This document shows, in pieces, positions 46,627 through 52,372 of a DNA stretch of 64,000 nucleotides (position 1 is its first letter; every line of letters begins with the position of its first letter). The position numbers and the translations under genes were made by a program. The notes below the pieces were generated by a model that made no database searches, was not told where the DNA came from, and saw only the letters and a program-made list of their open reading frames with translations. Source of the DNA: Alistipes sp. Marseille-P5061 (GTDB taxonomy: Bacteria; Bacteroidota; Bacteroidia; Bacteroidales; Rikenellaceae). The DNA lies in the NCBI RefSeq assembly GCF_900290115.1, contig NZ_LT985748.1, forward strand, positions 687,120 through 751,119. Direction: 5' to 3'.

Positions 46627-48378
46627 TCACTCGCGGATGCAGCGGATGTTGCCGCCGATGGCCTCGTTCTGGGCGTTGTTATTGCTCACCGCACGCGAGT
46701 ACCAGTAGAGCATGTAGCCCTTGAAGTTCTGCGCCGGATAGTTGTGGTTGTAGGAGCAGGCCGACCAATAGTAGCCGTAGCGCCCCACGTTCGACAGCCG
46801 GCCCGAATCCATCCGGTAGCCCTGCGCCGGCCAGTAGCCGCCCTTGTAGGTGCGCGACTGATGTTCGCCCGCCGCTGCCATCGTCGTCTTGTCGGCGTCG
46901 GCCATCACCTCCTGATACCATCCCGGCACCTTGTATCCCGGCGGGCAGGGGTCGAACATCGTCTTCTGGTTGTTGCGCTTCATGAAGTCGTAGCCCCACA
47001 GCTCGGCATACTGCACGTTGTCGTCGTTGAACCACGCCCCGACACCGCTCGAGGCGACCTGCGCCCCGTAGGTGATGAAGGTCATCGGATGGGCCGCCGC
47101 ATAGTCGACCGACTGCCCCGAGGCGATGGAGGCGTCGTCGTTGCGCAGCGTCGACCAGCCGGTCGTATGGGCCGCGTTGAAGACGCAGTCTCCCTCGATG
47201 GCGCTCTGGAAGGCCTCACCGTCGGGAATGGCCGCACCGTCGGAGTTCGCCAGCTGCGACGTCGCGATGAAGGGGTCCTTGCGCCCCCACTGATAGAAGA
47301 GGCCGAACGACGCCACGTCGTCGACCGCCGTCGAGGTGGCCCCCACATTGCGGTCGAGGAAGAGATACTCGGGCGAGGAGCCCTCGATAAGGTGGGCCGA
47401 GGGGTCCTCCGTCATCCAGATGTGCCAGCTCCAGACCACCCGCTGCTCGCTGTCGAAGAGGGCCAGCACCGCATTGCCGCGCCCCGCCGAGGCCTCAAAG
47501 CGAATCCGTTTCGAGGCGGCGTCAAACGACACCCCCGAAACCAGCCCCTCGGCCGAGGCCCAGAGCCAGTCGGCGCTCCACCCTTCGCCCGGCTGGATGG
47601 CCCCGTCGAAATGCTTGCTCTCCGCATCGGCATTGGCGCTCACGCCATTGCCGCGCACATCGGCCGCAAAGGAGTAGACGCCCGCCTCGCTCACCAGGTA
47701 GCAGTTGGCCGTCCCCGAGGCGCTCAGGTCGACCGACGAGGGGTCGGCCGTACGGAAAGGCTTCACGGCCAGCTCGCTGCGCGACTCAGCATCGGCAACG
47801 TAGGCGTAGAGCCGGTAGTCGGTCGCCGCGGCAAGGCCCCGGATTTCGAGCTTCATCTCGGCCGCAGCCTCCACCTCGGTAAACTCCGAAGGCTCGCCCC
47901 CGTCGGCGGGAAGGCAGGCCCAGAAGAGGCGCAGCGCGTCGGAGGTCGTCACCGAGGCCTCGGCCCCCTCGGCCGTGGCGGTCACCTCGCCGAACTGGAG
48001 TGCCGGCAGACGCAGCGTCTCGAAATCGCGGCTCACCGCCTCGCACGGCTCGCCCTTTGCATTCTCGGCCCGCGCCATAAGCGTATAGGCCGTGCCGGCG
48101 TCAAGCCCCTCGACGCGGAGCGTCACCGAAGCGGCGGGGCTCTCCAGTTGCGTCCAGGCCGATGCGTCGGGCGCGGTGCCCTGACTCAGACAGCAGTAGG
48201 CCACACGCGCGGCCTGTTCCGATTTCAGGGTGAAGCTCACCGCCTGCCGGGCAGGGGTCACCTCTTCGATGGTCACCTTGGCCGGAAGCGGCCGCGGAGC
48301 ATCACTATCCGACTTGCTGCACGCCGTCGGAAGCAGGGCCGCCCAGGCGGCCGTCAAGAGTACAAACAATCTCCTCAT
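46627..48378 (-). CDS. FISUMP-like surface lipoprotein under cobalamin riboswitch control
   Basis: 583 residues from the ATG at 48378; the in-frame extension upstream lies in the riboswitch leader. The lipobox Cys is residue 20 (LLPTAC), followed by SKSDSD, which fits the surface-export signal. Residues 28-120 and 122-215 resemble two fibronectin-III/Ig-like modules. Residues 220-350 carry the 'GTANCYLV...GVYSFAADVRGN' module seen in Bacteroidetes surface lipoproteins. The C-terminal 230 residues resemble the Fibrobacter succinogenes major paralogous (FISUMP) domain ('YLFLDRNVGATS', 'FDPCPPGYKVPGW', 'NIRCIRE'). The only gene downstream of a complete B12 riboswitch, it is probably made when cobalamin is scarce. 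No known B12-binding fold is recognisable. Confidence 0.82.
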   Translation of the reverse strand: MRRLFVLLTAAWAALLPTACSKSDSDAPRPLPAKVTIEEVTPARQAVSFTLKSEQAARVAYCCLSQGTAPDASAWTQLESPAASVTLRVEGLDAGTAYTLMARAENAKGEPCEAVSRDFETLRLPALQFGEVTATAEGAEASVTTSDALRLFWACLPADGGEPSEFTEVEAAAEMKLEIRGLAAATDYRLYAYVADAESRSELAVKPFRTADPSSVDLSASGTANCYLVSEAGVYSFAADVRGNGVSANADAESKHFDGAIQPGEGWSADWLWASAEGLVSGVSFDAASKRIRFEASAGRGNAVLALFDSEQRVVWSWHIWMTEDPSAHLIEGSSPEYLFLDRNVGATSTAVDDVASFGLFYQWGRKDPFIATSQLANSDGAAIPDGEAFQSAIEGDCVFNAAHTTGWSTLRNDDASIASGQSVDYAAAHPMTFITYGAQVASSGVGAWFNDDNVQYAELWGYDFMKRNNQKTMFDPCPPGYKVPGWYQEVMADADKTTMAAAGEHQSRTYKGGYWPAQGYRMDSGRLSNVGRYGYYWSACSYNHNYPAQNFKGYMLYWYSRAVSNNNAQNEAIGGNIRCIRE

Positions 48379-48530
48379 ATCCTGTACAATTAAAGGGTTA
48401 GGCGTTGCACCGCACCATCGGCGCCGCCCGCAGGAAGATTCGGAGTATGCAAAAAAGGGGAAACGGTAAAACGAAAAGAGTTCCTCCACCTCGCCCCGCC
48501 CGTCCTCCGCAGGCATGCGCTCGATTCAGG

Positions 48531-48720
48531 CAAAGGCAGGTCTTCTGACTCGCTTCCGACGCGACGCCTTCCCAACCCGAAGGTCAGTGGCAAAAGATTG
48601 TCGCGACGACAGCCCGGCATCCACCGGGACGAAGCTCACAGCAGCGGGAACTGTTGCCGAATTGCACGGCATTCCCTTTTAATCCCTCGAGGCGGCGCGG
48701 CCTCTCGGGAACCGTTTGCA
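48531..48720 (-). promoter_or_regulatory. Cobalamin (B12) riboswitch
   Basis: Read on the minus strand the element contains, in order, 'AAAAGGGAATGCCG', 'CAATTCGGCAACAG', 'CCCGCTGCTGTGAG' (the conserved core CCCGC-ACTGTGA variant), 'GCCACTG', 'GGGAAGG' and the B12-box end 'GCGAGTCAGAAGACCTGCC'. Order, spacing and the closing pairing (CAAA with TTTG at the ends) fit the cobalamin class (Rfam RF00174 type). It begins about where transcription from the adjacent promoter should start and is followed by a 152-base leader to the lipoprotein ATG at 48378. I could not identify a clear terminator or Shine-Dalgarno-sequestering helix, so the expression platform is undefined. Confidence 0.93.
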
Positions 48721-48723
48721 GGG

Positions 48724-48754
48724 CAAATGTAGCCATTTCCGGCATATTTCCAAA
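48724..48754 (-). promoter_or_regulatory. Promoter of the riboswitch transcript (TTTG-N19-TACATTTG)
   Basis: On the minus strand TTTG (48751-48754) and TACATTTG (48724-48731) are 19 bases apart. The aptamer starts within a few bases of the expected transcription start. Confidence 0.88.
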
Positions 48755-48819: not shown

Positions 48820-48861
48820 AAAAAAGCGGAGCGCTTCCCCCTTTGGGGGAAAACGCTCCGC
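48820..48861 (-). terminator. Intrinsic terminator of the metal locus
   Basis: On the minus strand GCGGAGCG and CGCTCCGC (48854-48861, 48826-48833) bracket a second inner stem of C and G runs, followed by six T. It separates the HMA gene from the riboswitch promoter. Confidence 0.92.
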
Positions 48862-48889: not shown

Positions 48890-49207
48890 CTACTCGGCCT
48901 TTTCGGCCTCGGGCATCGGTTCGGCCTTCACCTTGAGCGAGGCCAGCCCCTTGACAATCGTCTGCACGTCGTTCTTCGAGGCGTCGTAGACCACCGTAAC
49001 CTGCTTCGTGGCGAGGTCCACCTGCACATCCTTGATGCCTTTGCCCAGCACGGGCACGTTGTTCATGATGCGGGTCACGCAGTGCTCGCAGTCCACATCG
49101 GTCTTGAAGACGGTGGTCACCGTCTTCTTCTGGGCGGCGGGTTTGGCCGCCATGCAGGTGCCGACGCCCAGCAGCAGGACGAGGCACATCATCAGCATCT
49201 TTTTCAT
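48890..49207 (-). CDS. Periplasmic heavy-metal-associated (HMA) protein
   Basis: 105 residues. The signal peptide is MKKMLMMCLVLLLGVGTCMA. The HMA ferredoxin-like fold follows, with the metal-binding pair in 'DCEHC' (C40 and C43; the canonical motif is MxCxxC) and 'VYDASKNDVQTIVKGL' as the second helix. Such domains bind Cu(I), Zn or other soft metals and hand them between proteins. A good Shine-Dalgarno-like AGGAG lies ten bases before the ATG, uncommon in this group. It is 109 bases downstream of the TonB receptor and ends in a strong terminator, so it is the last gene of the metal locus. Confidence 0.88.
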   Translation of the reverse strand: MKKMLMMCLVLLLGVGTCMAAKPAAQKKTVTTVFKTDVDCEHCVTRIMNNVPVLGKGIKDVQVDLATKQVTVVYDASKNDVQTIVKGLASLKVKAEPMPEAEKAE

Positions 49208-49316
49208 CTTGTCTCCTGTTTTTTGAAGTTTTACTCGTATTCGTTCATTCCGGCGCGCGGAGGCCGTCCGGAGCGCTCCGGCCCGGCCCGGCCCGCGCCC
49301 CGCATCAGTATCAGTA

Positions 49317-51695
49317 TCAGTAGAGGTTGAAGCGCACGCCCAGATAGAACTTGCGCCCCATGAGCGGACCCCAGACGTTCATCGAGTTGAAGGCCGCCGA
49401 GAAGGGGTTGTCGGCACTCAGAATCGGGTCGTGCTGCATGTAGTCGCCGATGTTCTCGCAGCCGACGTAGATGTCGAACTTGCCCACCTTGCGGGTCACC
49501 TGTGCGAAGAAAATCGGGTAGCGCGGCGAGTAGTAGCCGTAGTCGGCCTCCACGACGCCGTTGTTCTCCACGAAGCGCGGCACGCGGCTCGGGCCGTTCA
49601 GCTGGGCCGTCACGTCGAAGACCCAACGGCGGAACTTGGTGGCGTACTGGATGTTGAGCAGCGTCTTGTACTGGCTGATGAGCGGCCGCTCGACGCGCAC
49701 GTGCTCCGTTCCCTGGGGGTTGCGGTTGAGCGTCATCTCGCTGTCCGTGTAGCGGAACGTGGCGAAGATGTCGAGCCGCTCGACGGGCGACCACGAGAAG
49801 TCGACCTGGTAGGTATCCGTATAGGAGCGGCCGTCGGTGTTGTAGATGTGGATGGCGGAGGGGTCCATCTCCTGGTCGACGACCACCGAGTTGTAGAACT
49901 GCGTGCGGAAGTAGTCGAAGCTCAGCGTCGCATCGTCCTCGCGCACCAGCGTGAAGCTCTGCGTGAGGCTGCCGCCGAAGGTCAGCGCCTTCTCCATGCG
50001 GTTGAAGTCGCGCGAGAAGCCGTTGTCGAAGACCAGCTTGCGGCCCGTGGCCAGCATGCCGACGTTGTCCGTGATGATGTTGGTCGTGCGGTAACCCAGA
50101 CCGGCCGAGGCGCGCAGCGTGGTGGTGCGGGTGATATTCCAGCGGATGTGGCCGCGCGGCGTGGCGAAGAAGTTGTCGAAGTAGCGGTTGTAGTCGCCGC
50201 GAATGCCCGCCACGAGCGAGAACTTGTCCTTGATGGAGTAGGTATACTCGGCGAAGAGTCCCGCCTCGCCCTCCGTACGGTCGAAGGTGAAGTCACCGGC
50301 CGACGTCCCGGCAATCCAGGGCGTGGGGTTGAGCAGCGACTCGCGGTAGTAGTTCAGGTGGGCCTGACCGCCGACGTTGATGGAGGAGCGGTAGGTGAAG
50401 TAGTGGTTGTACATGAGCGAGAGCGAGAGCGCGTTCTGGTTACCCGAGTAGTTGTTCAGGCCGAAGTAGGCCTCCTCGTCGAAGTGGTCGAAGTCGGCCA
50501 CGAAGGCCAGGTTCGAGCGCATCTCGTCCTGCTCCTGCTCGTCGTAGACCGACGGGCCGAGCGGCAAGCCGATTTTGACGTAGCCGTTGGCGTTGCGATT
50601 GCGGATGTGCGAGCCGTAGAGCGGCTTGCCGGCAGCATCGGGCTGCTCCCACAGCGACCAGTCATCCTCCATCGCCCGGCGCATGGCGTCGGTATTGCGG
50701 TAGCCGAGCATGCCGCCCAGGCGGTTCTCCTGGACGAACTTCCAGCCCCAGCGAATCTGCGTGCCGTTGTCGGCCGCATAGAGCCACTTGTTGGCCACGT
50801 TGAACTGGCTGGTGATGGGCAGGTCGCGGAAACCGTCGTCGTTGTGGTCCATGCGCCGCACGTCGGTATCGCCCGAGCCGTGGAGCAGGATGATGCTCGT
50901 CAGCTTTCCGTCGCGCGAGACGGGAAAGGCCGAGGTGATGTTGGCCTCGGGACGCAGCTCGTCGTCGAGGTAGACGTTGACGAAGAGGCGTTCGGCGTCG
51001 GTCGGCTTGCGGTGCTCGAGGTTGATTTGGCCCGTGATGGCCTCATGGCCGGCCGTCACCGAGGCGACGCCCTTCGAGACCTGAATCGAGTTGAGCCACA
51101 TGCCCGGCGTATAGCTCAGGCCGTAGGGGGCGCTGAGCCCCTGCATGATGGGGCGGTTCTCGTCGAGAATCTGCGTATAGGTGCCGGCCAGACCGAGCAT
51201 CTTGATTTGCCGCGCGCCCGAGATGGCGTCGCTGTAGCCTACGGTCACCGACGCCGAGTTCTCGAACGACTCGGCCAGGTTGCAGCAGGCCATCTTGCAG
51301 AGGCCGGCAAAGGATATCATCTCGTTCTTGACAATGCCGTCGTGCTTGACATAGTTGCCGCTCTGGTTCCCCTCGATGACCACCTCGTCGAGCGAGACCC
51401 CTTCGGCCTCGAGCGCGAAGTTGAGCTCCGCACGGTTGTCGTCGATGCGGACCGTGTCGTTGACGTAACCGAGGTAGGAGGCGACCAGACGGTCGTAGCC
51501 GCGCACGCGGTGCACCAGGAAGCCACCCTCGGCATCGGTGCTTGCGCCGACGGTCGTTCCGGCCCAGTAGACCGAAGCGCCGACGAGCGGCTGTCCCTCC
51601 GTATCGCACACCTTGCCGCGCAGGTCCTGGGCGCGAAGCGGCGAGGCGGCGGCAAACAGCGTAAGAATTGCAATCGATAAAGCGAATCGTTTCAT
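49317..51695 (-). CDS. TonB-dependent receptor with Cys-rich plug, probable metal receptor
   Basis: 792 residues from the ATG at 51695, which begins the signal peptide MKRFALSIAILTLFAAASPLRAQ. Residues 25-100 are a carboxypeptidase-like regulatory domain ('DLRGKVCDTEGQPLVGASVYW'). A TonB-box-like stretch lies near 'DEVVIEG' (103-109). The plug holds three Cys in 'LCKMACCNL' (C133, C137, C138), an unusual feature for an outer-membrane receptor and suggestive of soft-metal binding. The plug motif 'QIKMLGLAGTYTQILDENRPI' is typical of this receptor subfamily, often found beside HMA proteins in Bacteroidetes. The barrel ends 'GRKFYLGVRFNLY'. Copper or zinc is the likely substrate by context; this is inference. 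Confidence 0.88.
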   Translation of the reverse strand: MKRFALSIAILTLFAAASPLRAQDLRGKVCDTEGQPLVGASVYWAGTTVGASTDAEGGFLVHRVRGYDRLVASYLGYVNDTVRIDDNRAELNFALEAEGVSLDEVVIEGNQSGNYVKHDGIVKNEMISFAGLCKMACCNLAESFENSASVTVGYSDAISGARQIKMLGLAGTYTQILDENRPIMQGLSAPYGLSYTPGMWLNSIQVSKGVASVTAGHEAITGQINLEHRKPTDAERLFVNVYLDDELRPEANITSAFPVSRDGKLTSIILLHGSGDTDVRRMDHNDDGFRDLPITSQFNVANKWLYAADNGTQIRWGWKFVQENRLGGMLGYRNTDAMRRAMEDDWSLWEQPDAAGKPLYGSHIRNRNANGYVKIGLPLGPSVYDEQEQDEMRSNLAFVADFDHFDEEAYFGLNNYSGNQNALSLSLMYNHYFTYRSSINVGGQAHLNYYRESLLNPTPWIAGTSAGDFTFDRTEGEAGLFAEYTYSIKDKFSLVAGIRGDYNRYFDNFFATPRGHIRWNITRTTTLRASAGLGYRTTNIITDNVGMLATGRKLVFDNGFSRDFNRMEKALTFGGSLTQSFTLVREDDATLSFDYFRTQFYNSVVVDQEMDPSAIHIYNTDGRSYTDTYQVDFSWSPVERLDIFATFRYTDSEMTLNRNPQGTEHVRVERPLISQYKTLLNIQYATKFRRWVFDVTAQLNGPSRVPRFVENNGVVEADYGYYSPRYPIFFAQVTRKVGKFDIYVGCENIGDYMQHDPILSADNPFSAAFNSMNVWGPLMGRKFYLGVRFNLY

Positions 51696-51718
51696 GGGTT
51701 TTTCATTTTTCGACGGAG

Positions 51719-51754
51719 CAAAGGTGGCAAAAAAGAGTTGCAACCGGGTTGCAA
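51719..51754 (-). promoter_or_regulatory. Receptor promoter -7 (CACCTTTG) with 17-bp palindromic operator
   Basis: CACCTTTG (51719-51726), one mismatch from TAnnTTTG, is 24 bases from the receptor ATG. Just upstream, TTGCAACCGGGTTGCAA (51738-51754) is a perfect palindrome about the central G. Its place between the -33 and -7 regions, next to a Fur-family gene, marks it as a probable Fur-family operator. Confidence 0.7.
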
Positions 51755-51782
51755 AGTCTCTATGCATACCCTGCACTGGGGC

Positions 51783-52211
51783 TCAGCCCCGCCGTTTGGC
51801 CCTGCACTCGGGGCAGAGTCCCCGGAGCAGGTAGTCGATTTGACGGACCTCGAAACCGGCCGGATAGGCGACAACCGGAATGTGCGTATGGTCCAGACAG
51901 AGGGTCCGGCCGCACGCCTCGCAATGGAAGTGGCAGTGCATCTCGTCGATGCGGCAGGCGTGGTCGTTGTGGCAGACGCAGTACTTGGCCGAGCCGCTGC
52001 CATCCTCGACCAGATGCAGCAGGTGGCGCCGCACGAAGAGCGTCAGCGTCCGGTAAATCGACGAGCGGTCCATGCCGTCGGTGGCCTCCTCCAGGTCGGC
52101 CAGCGTGAAGGTGTCGCTGAAACGCTCCATGGCGTCCAGCACAAGCATGCGCACCGCCGTGGGGCGGATGCCGTGGTGCAGAAGCACCTCTTCGCAATGG
52201 TGGGAATCCAT
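51783..52211 (-). CDS. Fur-family metalloregulator
   Basis: 142 residues from the ATG at 52211. The winged-helix DNA-binding part (residues 10-80) has 'LHHGIRPTAVRMLVLDAM' and 'DRSSIYRTLTLFVRRHLLH'. The dimerisation part has 'HCHFHCEACGRTLCL' (His/Cys cluster, C97 and C100) and C-terminal 'CPEC' (C133 and C136), a structural zinc site as in Zur and PerR. Additional Cys and His ('CVCHNDHAC', 78-86) could form another metal site. It is 87 bases upstream of the receptor start. Whether it senses iron, zinc or another metal cannot be told from sequence; the TTGCAAC dyad in the receptor promoter is its likely target. Confidence 0.88.
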   Translation of the reverse strand: MDSHHCEEVLLHHGIRPTAVRMLVLDAMERFSDTFTLADLEEATDGMDRSSIYRTLTLFVRRHLLHLVEDGSGSAKYCVCHNDHACRIDEMHCHFHCEACGRTLCLDHTHIPVVAYPAGFEVRQIDYLLRGLCPECRAKRRG

Positions 52212-52372
52212 CTTGCCCTCCTCGAAAGGCCTGCCGACGGGCGGCAGACCGGTCCGTAAATCGATGATTGGTAAAAACGGGTGGAATAAAAAGAGAAGCA
52301 CGCGGGCGGAGAGGGAGCCGGGCTCCGCGCAACATCCGCCTGCAGGCGCGCCCGGACACACCGAGGGCGCCG

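Follow-up and report, generated by a model that had tools for sequence, protein, structure and literature searches.

In Bacteroides, genes behind cobamide riboswitches are repressed when B12 is present, according to passages of two papers (PMC8941943; PMC6143338), and several surface lipoproteins are under such control. BtuG is a riboswitch-regulated lipoprotein with a DUF5074 beta-propeller, and the export signal of BtuG2 is given as MKWD in an excerpt of PMC6143338. BtuH, as described in part of PMC8941943, belongs to the B12-riboswitch regulon and joins an N-terminal part to a C-terminal head. DUF4465 proteins (PF14717; BtuJ) bind B12, as stated in sections of PMC13398666 and PMC12751083, and BtuL of B. 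thetaiotaomicron is a lipoprotein of a riboswitch-regulated operon whose ligand is not known (PMC12751083, in excerpt). Here we analyse a 64,000-nucleotide stretch of Alistipes sp. Marseille-P5061 (contig NZ_LT985748.1), referred to throughout as the window, in which one gene, P0001, follows a cobalamin riboswitch and encodes a predicted lipoprotein with an Ig-like and FISUMP-like head. We give a probability of roughly 0.6 to the reading that P0001 is a stand-alone, B12-repressed surface lipoprotein, a receptor that aids cobamide acquisition. The control element and the general kind, a surface lipoprotein led by a B12 riboswitch, are already known. An Ig-like/FISUMP-like head in this role is new in that it was not found in the open-licence papers searched, among which none contains the word FISUMP and none pairs Alistipes with 'cobalamin riboswitch' or DUF4988 with a riboswitch; Fib_succ_major and B12 co-occur in a phage paper, and Alistipes and BtuG in a diet review.

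The regulatory region and its gene are arranged as follows.

48826..48861, minus strand: terminator-like hairpin (terminator call) 3' of the upstream HMA gene
48724..48754, minus strand: promoter, TTTG-N19-TACATTTG, from direct sequence reading
48518..48732, minus strand: cobalamin riboswitch aptamer (RF00174), from cmscan, with 80% identity to the one at the L016 orthologue
48379..48517, minus strand: leader of 139 nucleotides from aptamer to start codon, aligned with the L016 leader
46627..48378, minus strand: lipoprotein gene P0001, 583 amino acids by translation, with a 71% identical orthologue in Candidatus Alistipes avicola (locus L016)

The riboswitch is matched over its full length (48732-48518, model positions 1-189 of 189) at 91.6 bits and an E-value of 2.1e-21, the gathering score being 31.5, and is the sole Rfam match above its gathering score in the window. 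The first-pass annotation, made from the letters of the sequence, had placed a B12 aptamer at 48531-48720 on the minus strand and a consensus promoter at 48724-48754. The covariance model thus bears out the aptamer strongly, and direct reading arrives at the same promoter coordinates, with TTTG at 48754-48751 separated by 19 bases from TACATTTG at 48731-48724. This is an exact instance of TTTG-N19-TAnnTTTG, which we take to be the usual Bacteroidota promoter form. When up to one mismatch was allowed between -90 and +25 bases relative to the aptamer start, 68 of 113 riboswitch loci carried the pattern TTTG-N18-22-TAnnTTTG, compared with 7 of 565 length-matched random stretches. The start codon is placed at the ATG at 48378, from which 583 codons run to a stop ending at 46627, because the 71% identical orthologue, which has its own RF00174 element at the same place (93.7 bits), begins at the same Met; a 629-residue open reading frame (ORF) starting inside the aptamer is disfavoured on this ground. 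Since the terminator-like hairpin at 48861-48826 follows the upstream HMA gene and the gene directly downstream of P0001 lies on the opposite strand, the riboswitch unit probably stands alone, in line with the earlier claim that it precedes one gene only. From established knowledge of such elements, the riboswitch would act as an OFF switch.

P0001 belongs to a larger set. The genome (G000) carries seven RF00174 riboswitches, which lead the following.

a DUF5074 (BtuG-type) lipoprotein gene first, with a TonB receptor gene about 0.9 kb beyond
a set of TonB receptor, DUF5074, BtuH-like and second DUF5074 genes
a solitary DUF4465 (BtuJ-type) lipoprotein gene, its product matching PF14717 (E 1.8e-23) and also 9hmu
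an NrdD gene
an unclear target, the nearest same-strand gene, about 0.7 kb on, being a small ORF with no Pfam match
the window gene, P0001
a P0001 paralogue, with an alkaline phosphatase gene behind

The BtuH-like protein matches 8blw (E 1.8e-64) and 7biz (E 6.9e-35), which we take to be BtuH structures, and the B12-binding domain PF02310 is found above its cut-off at three places in the genome. From the other riboswitch targets and the places of the B12-binding domain, the P0001 gene is therefore a member of a cobamide regulon. The paralogue is 39% identical to P0001 over residues 209-583.

A census of the first genes behind 133 riboswitches of the genus gives the same picture on a wider scale. 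The sample holds the seven of this genome and 126 of the 144 listed for other genomes, 18 listed rows being left out, so that the counts are drawn from within the 150 rows listed; 21 of the 133 loci were read with only 1.5 kb of flank, and genes were called with a codon-usage script or, where none was called, as the longest downstream ORF. The first gene is of DUF4465 type at 52 sites, a class assigned by matches and by a model, which may also be triggered by the DUF4988 stalk; on a Pfam check of ten such genes, nine have DUF4465 and one (L200) has DUF4988 only. It is of NrdD type at 32, defined by phmmer similarity to the genome's own NrdD with the ATP-cone included, so that other ribonucleotide reductases are possible among them. 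The remaining sites lead BtuG/DUF5074 (13), BtuH-like (9), FISUMP-like (7), small ORF (7), BtuB-like (4) and unclassified (9) genes. First genes of cobamide-uptake or NrdD type thus account for 110 of the 133, one of them, L200, being doubtful. The seven FISUMP-like genes compare with about 0.16 expected (P 5e-10), a rough figure that takes the 247 head matches (E<=1e-10) seen across 101 genomes and supposes 2000 genes in each. This P treats orthologues as independent; because several of the seven are orthologues, the independent count is nearer three loci, for which P is about 6e-4.

Some other members of these riboswitch units deserve mention. The small ORF of this genome (L047:11055-11426, minus strand) is conserved at about 121-144 residues across loci, recurring at L057, L058, L063, L067, L073, L155 and the L075 region in the genus; it accounts for the 7 of 133 sites above, two members scanned had no Pfam match, and it may be a further component of the B12 regulon. 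The anaerobic class III ribonucleotide reductase NrdD, or an ATP-cone reductase like it, often stands first (for example L049:7096-9228, plus strand). At L179 (G054:C7) the riboswitch leads a gene for a multi-pass transporter-like protein, with the small ORF next in line, a possible two-gene B12-controlled unit, and at L200 (G087:C10) the riboswitch-led protein has a DUF4988 stalk with no recognised head and is followed by a very long ORF. Alkaline phosphatase adjoins a riboswitch-led FISUMP-like gene in two genomes (L051:13074-14186, minus strand; L094:6046-7146, plus strand). It was considered as a partner of the head, but lies behind the paralogue at L051 and before the riboswitch in G152 (L094, where it is named from sequence reading); because of this difference in order it is not a fixed operon member.

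The protein itself divides into a signal, a stalk and a two-part head.

48319..48378, minus strand: signal peptide to Cys20, then SKSD (compare MKWD of BtuG2), from sequence reading
47740..48291, minus strand: stalk of two tandem Fn3 domains, residues 30-213, from the AlphaFold model and PDB comparison
47386..47739, minus strand: head part 1, Ig-like beta-sandwich, residues 214-331, from the core model and a weak PDB match
46630..47385, minus strand: head part 2, FISUMP-like domain, residues 332-583, from a BFVD match, a sub-threshold PF09603 match on the paralogue and invariant columns over 40 relatives
46630..46803, minus strand: stretch of strongest conservation in the head, residues 526-583, with 96.6% identity between orthologues and a ratio of non-synonymous to synonymous change (dN/dS) of about 0.03 (rough, dS being high)

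The N-terminus, by sequence reading only, has a hydrophobic leader, Cys20 and SKSD after the Cys, and from what is established for such signals P0001 would be lipidated and displayed on the cell surface. The AlphaFold model of the whole protein has a mean predicted local distance difference test score (pLDDT) of 82. Its stalk (residues about 30-213) finds a best PDB comparison with Z 12.6 over 179 residues and a root-mean-square deviation (rmsd) of 6.4, and the Fn3-like modules proposed earlier are seen in the model as two tandem domains; Pfam fn3 is below its cut-off on P0001 itself and above it on the avicola orthologue. The fold links of the whole model are dominated by Fn3, and the eight sequences recovered by phmmer with P0001 to E<=1 are all of Fn3 type. 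Modelled alone, the C-terminal 370 residues give pLDDT 83 and a predicted template-modelling score (pTM) of 0.90 and form an Ig-like sandwich and a FISUMP-like domain. The best structural match of the Ig-like part is weak (Z 5.7, 79 residues, rmsd 2.8). In BFVD, a collection of viral models, the core model matches a FISUMP protein best, with E 1.6e-3 and probability 1.00 over 124 alignment columns; the rmsd is 4.6 and the TM-score, by query length, only 0.22. PF09603 (FISUMP) has no match at E<=1 on P0001 and reaches 17.8 bits on the paralogue, under the cut-off of 33.9, and since the cut-off is not reached we call the C-terminus FISUMP-like; the first-pass name for it thus keeps the trend on the paralogue and the BFVD match in its favour and lacks a Pfam match on P0001 itself. 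By profile the head has 0 matches in the PDB at E<=10, and the head model alone has none at E<=1e-3, with Z at most 5.7. In passages of PMC4159848, Fib_succ_major and the similar DUF1566 are listed among the targets of diversity-generating retroelements, and the variable region of one target is compared with the C-type-lectin fold; on this analogy, Fib_succ_major/DUF1566 domains are binding-type heads.

Set beside the described systems, P0001 compares as follows. Like the BtuJ/DUF4465 proteins, which in the genus are encoded by solitary or operon-first lipoprotein genes directly behind RF00174, it has relatives with the DUF4988 stalk in related genomes; unlike them, it has an Ig-like and FISUMP-like head and no PF14717 match at E<=1. 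It resembles BtuH as a lipoprotein of a B12-riboswitch regulon with an N-terminal part and a C-terminal head, but matches neither 7biz nor 8blw (C-terminal part) at E<=1, and the genome has its own BtuH-like protein. With BtuG it shares riboswitch regulation, and its post-Cys SKSD resembles MKWD, whereas its model has no propeller, it has no DUF5074 match at E<=1 and its gene is not beside BtuB; the genome's BtuG-like proteins do match DUF5074. The head fold searches also list no cobamide binder. BtuL, compared here by its published description, is in a btu operon, whereas the P0001 gene stands alone. To FISUMP/Fib_succ_major (PF09603) and DUF1566 the head is linked by profile trend and predicted structure; it differs in falling under the Pfam cut-off, in the Ig-like part in front and in its riboswitch control.

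The link between head and riboswitch is not confined to this genome. Among 180 genomes of the genus, matches at E<=1e-36 are found for 17 genes in 12 genomes, the window gene included, and 11 of these 17 best genes, spread over 9 genomes, either follow a riboswitch directly or are the second gene of a riboswitch operon (two in G000, two in tandem in G043 and one each in G101, G085, G105, G054, G076, G042 and G152). A lack of any such link in homologues elsewhere, which the first-pass annotation had named as telling against its reading, is therefore not what is seen. The Ig-like and FISUMP-like head is common to the riboswitch-linked copies and is preceded by four kinds of N-terminal part.

Fn3 pair: window gene and avicola orthologue
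DUF4988: three of three scanned from the purB class
Invasin_D3 only, under cut-off: G152, with the G000 paralogue similar in sequence
fimbrillin-like, under cut-off: one of the two G043 genes

These copies lie beside a TonB receptor/HMA pair, beside purB, or beside uracil-DNA glycosylase and rpoD, the neighbours being named from a reading of protein starts. DUF4465 lipoproteins behind riboswitches can have the DUF4988 stalk too (E 5.7e-15 by profile, and 2 of 10 proteins scanned with Pfam have both domains), so that in the genus the FISUMP-like head occupies the place held elsewhere by a known B12-binding head. DUF4988-like starts are, by reading, also present on riboswitch-free head relatives (L012, L101), and the shared stalk is for this reason supportive only.

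Conservation rises along the protein. Between the window and avicola orthologues the two Fn3 domains are 51% and 57% identical, the Ig-like part 77%, the FISUMP-like part 84% and the last 58 residues 96.6%, a gradient that would fit a working surface at the head tip. The dN/dS above is rough because synonymous substitutions approach saturation. At the DNA level the aptamers are, as noted, 80% identical and the whole aligned 5' regions 77%.

From these observations we propose that ample intracellular cobamide would bind the riboswitch and turn the P0001 gene off, and that when cobamide is scarce P0001 would be expressed along with the BtuB-, BtuG-, BtuH- and BtuJ-type uptake proteins under the sister riboswitches. 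The protein would be lipidated at Cys20 and shown on the cell surface on its two-Fn3 stalk, where the Ig-like and FISUMP-like head may capture cobamide or a cobamide carrier and hand it over to BtuB-BtuG transporters. The probability given above for a cobamide role was reached by weighing together riboswitch repression, the binding of B12 by DUF4465 proteins and the non-binding of BtuL. On the same evidence, that the ligand is a corrinoid bound directly, rather than a carrier or partner, is put at somewhat below even odds. More tentatively still, the Ig-like and FISUMP-like head could be one more type of surface domain by which Bacteroidota capture cobamides, beside BtuG, BtuH, DUF4465/BtuJ and BtuK, a head of the kind compared with C-type lectins, carried on interchangeable stalks behind B12 riboswitches.

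A number of observations weigh against this reading. By sequence (Pfam and phmmer, E<=1), P0001 is not linked to BtuG, BtuH or BtuJ, and the head fold searches, which gave weak matches only, listed no cobamide binder, which does not exclude one. BtuL, although in a riboswitch-regulated operon, showed no cobalamin binding in the part of PMC12751083 available, and regulation alone is therefore no proof of binding. No clear expression platform was found in the leader (48360-48560 has a fold z-score of -0.16 and no terminator is called there), and neither BtuB nor BtuG is co-transcribed with P0001. Of the 17 best genes, six lack a flanking riboswitch (two from G088 and those of G087, G066, G085:C13 and G054:C11). 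The head family is large, with a match at E<=1e-10 in 93 of 101 genus genomes, and a riboswitch-led copy was found in only 9 of 180. The other head relatives had no RF00174 in the flanks scanned, 1.5 kb around the head match; for 12 of the 27 genes measured, this covered fewer than 110 bases ahead of the start, so that a riboswitch could be missed. Since such flanks are too short for long genes, whole-genome RF00174 coordinates were compared by eye in 40 further genomes of the genus and family, 39 of which have RF00174. Among the head matches listed, none is closer than 4 kb to an RF00174 site; the closest pairs are about 5 kb apart, in G291 and G292, on opposite strands. Across the order, sampled with 60 genomes from as many families, the head profile matches at E<=1e-8 in 15 (many with the FISUMP half only) and RF00174 is found in 57, and outside G000 no head match is on the same contig as a riboswitch. 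Nine genomes, all of one genus, are thus the only ones in which the link is known. Nor does the riboswitch label form one clade on the head tree, which has long branches: the starred branches force at least 3 changes, the purB and rpoD classes group in a single clade (99/99), away from the window pair, and the G043 pair is placed elsewhere. Holding the nine rows of the three main classes (A-C) together is not rejected (p-AU 0.2), while all 11 riboswitch-led rows including G043 as one clade are rejected (p-AU 0.006); the link was either made at least twice or lost repeatedly. Thus the first-pass suggestion of a cobamide-capturing or cobamide-responsive surface protein is supported at the level of regulation and regulon; for cobamide binding it gains nothing from BtuG, BtuH, BtuJ or the fold searches, and the head family is large, the other members examined having no adjoining riboswitch.

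Just upstream of the riboswitch unit, at 48890-52361 on the minus strand, an HMA-domain protein, a TonB-dependent receptor and a Fur-family regulator lie in a row, a set that resembles metal uptake; the receptor/HMA pair is kept in avicola (L092), a synteny that may be plain inheritance. As a further point against a cobamide role, the receptor has no blastp match at E<=1 to the two BtuB-like receptors of the genome. A functional tie of P0001 to the pair was considered and set aside, given this dissimilarity and the intervening terminator-like hairpin. When the window ORFs were searched with the genome's own BtuB-, BtuG- and BtuH-like proteins none was found, a search that did not extend to cobalamin biosynthesis genes. 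The absence of btuB and btuG reported earlier is thus correct for the window, but both types are present elsewhere in the genome under other B12 riboswitches.

Among the alternatives, the one that survives best, although we consider it unlikely, is that P0001 is a B12-regulated accessory that binds no cobamide, acting in vesicle release, receptor docking or uptake-complex assembly under B12 shortage. BtuL is a precedent, for passages of PMC12751083 have this non-binding riboswitch-operon lipoprotein promoting early vesicle release, and the changing N-terminal parts and the lack of a linked BtuB fit as well. The strongest conservation, however, is at the head tip and not in the stalk, and a ligand is suggested by the FISUMP/DUF1566 domains of proteins that PMC4159848 (in excerpt) sets beside the C-type-lectin binding fold.

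It is somewhat less probable still that P0001 is an adhesin induced by B12 starvation, whose head would bind glycan or protein on mucus, food particles or microbes, low B12 being a cue for location or crowding and uptake playing no part. Fn3 and fimbrillin-like parts are common in surface adhesins, and the riboswitch-free head relatives are far more numerous. An unrelated adhesin would nevertheless be an exception among first genes of which 110 of 133 are of cobamide-uptake or NrdD type (L200 being doubtful), with seven small ORFs and nine genes left without an assigned role.

Chance capture, in which a riboswitch came to lie before an unrelated gene with no selected role, is very improbable and already disfavoured. 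The scatter of the riboswitch label on the head tree and the rejection of a single clade would suit it, but seven FISUMP-like first genes are seen where about 0.16 are expected, several loci and N-terminal parts are involved, and the aptamer and 5' region have been kept at 80% and 77% DNA identity while the Fn3 stalk drifted to 51-57% protein identity (the scales being different).

That P0001 is a variable protein with a FISUMP tip diversified by a retroelement is hardly credible, for although Fib_succ_major domains occur in such targets (PMC4159848, in excerpt), the idea is refuted in the genome as assembled, where the last 204 bases of the gene have, besides themselves, only matches of 32 bases or fewer and hence no near-identical template repeat, and no other part of the protein is as conserved as the tip. 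Separately, an ORF with a single reverse-transcriptase domain (open frame of 297 residues) is present elsewhere in the genome (L282, G000:C2:123210-123695), and in another genus of the family an RF03028 (RT-7 RNA) match lies near a FISUMP-like gene (L268:104-287, minus strand).

Competition for cobamides shapes gut communities, and the Bacteroidota keep yielding new lipoproteins for it. If the head of P0001 does bind cobamides or their carriers, a common surface module would gain a ligand and Alistipes would gain a testable uptake factor. Even without binding, P0001 still points to a B12-riboswitch-led surface protein with a role that is directly testable.

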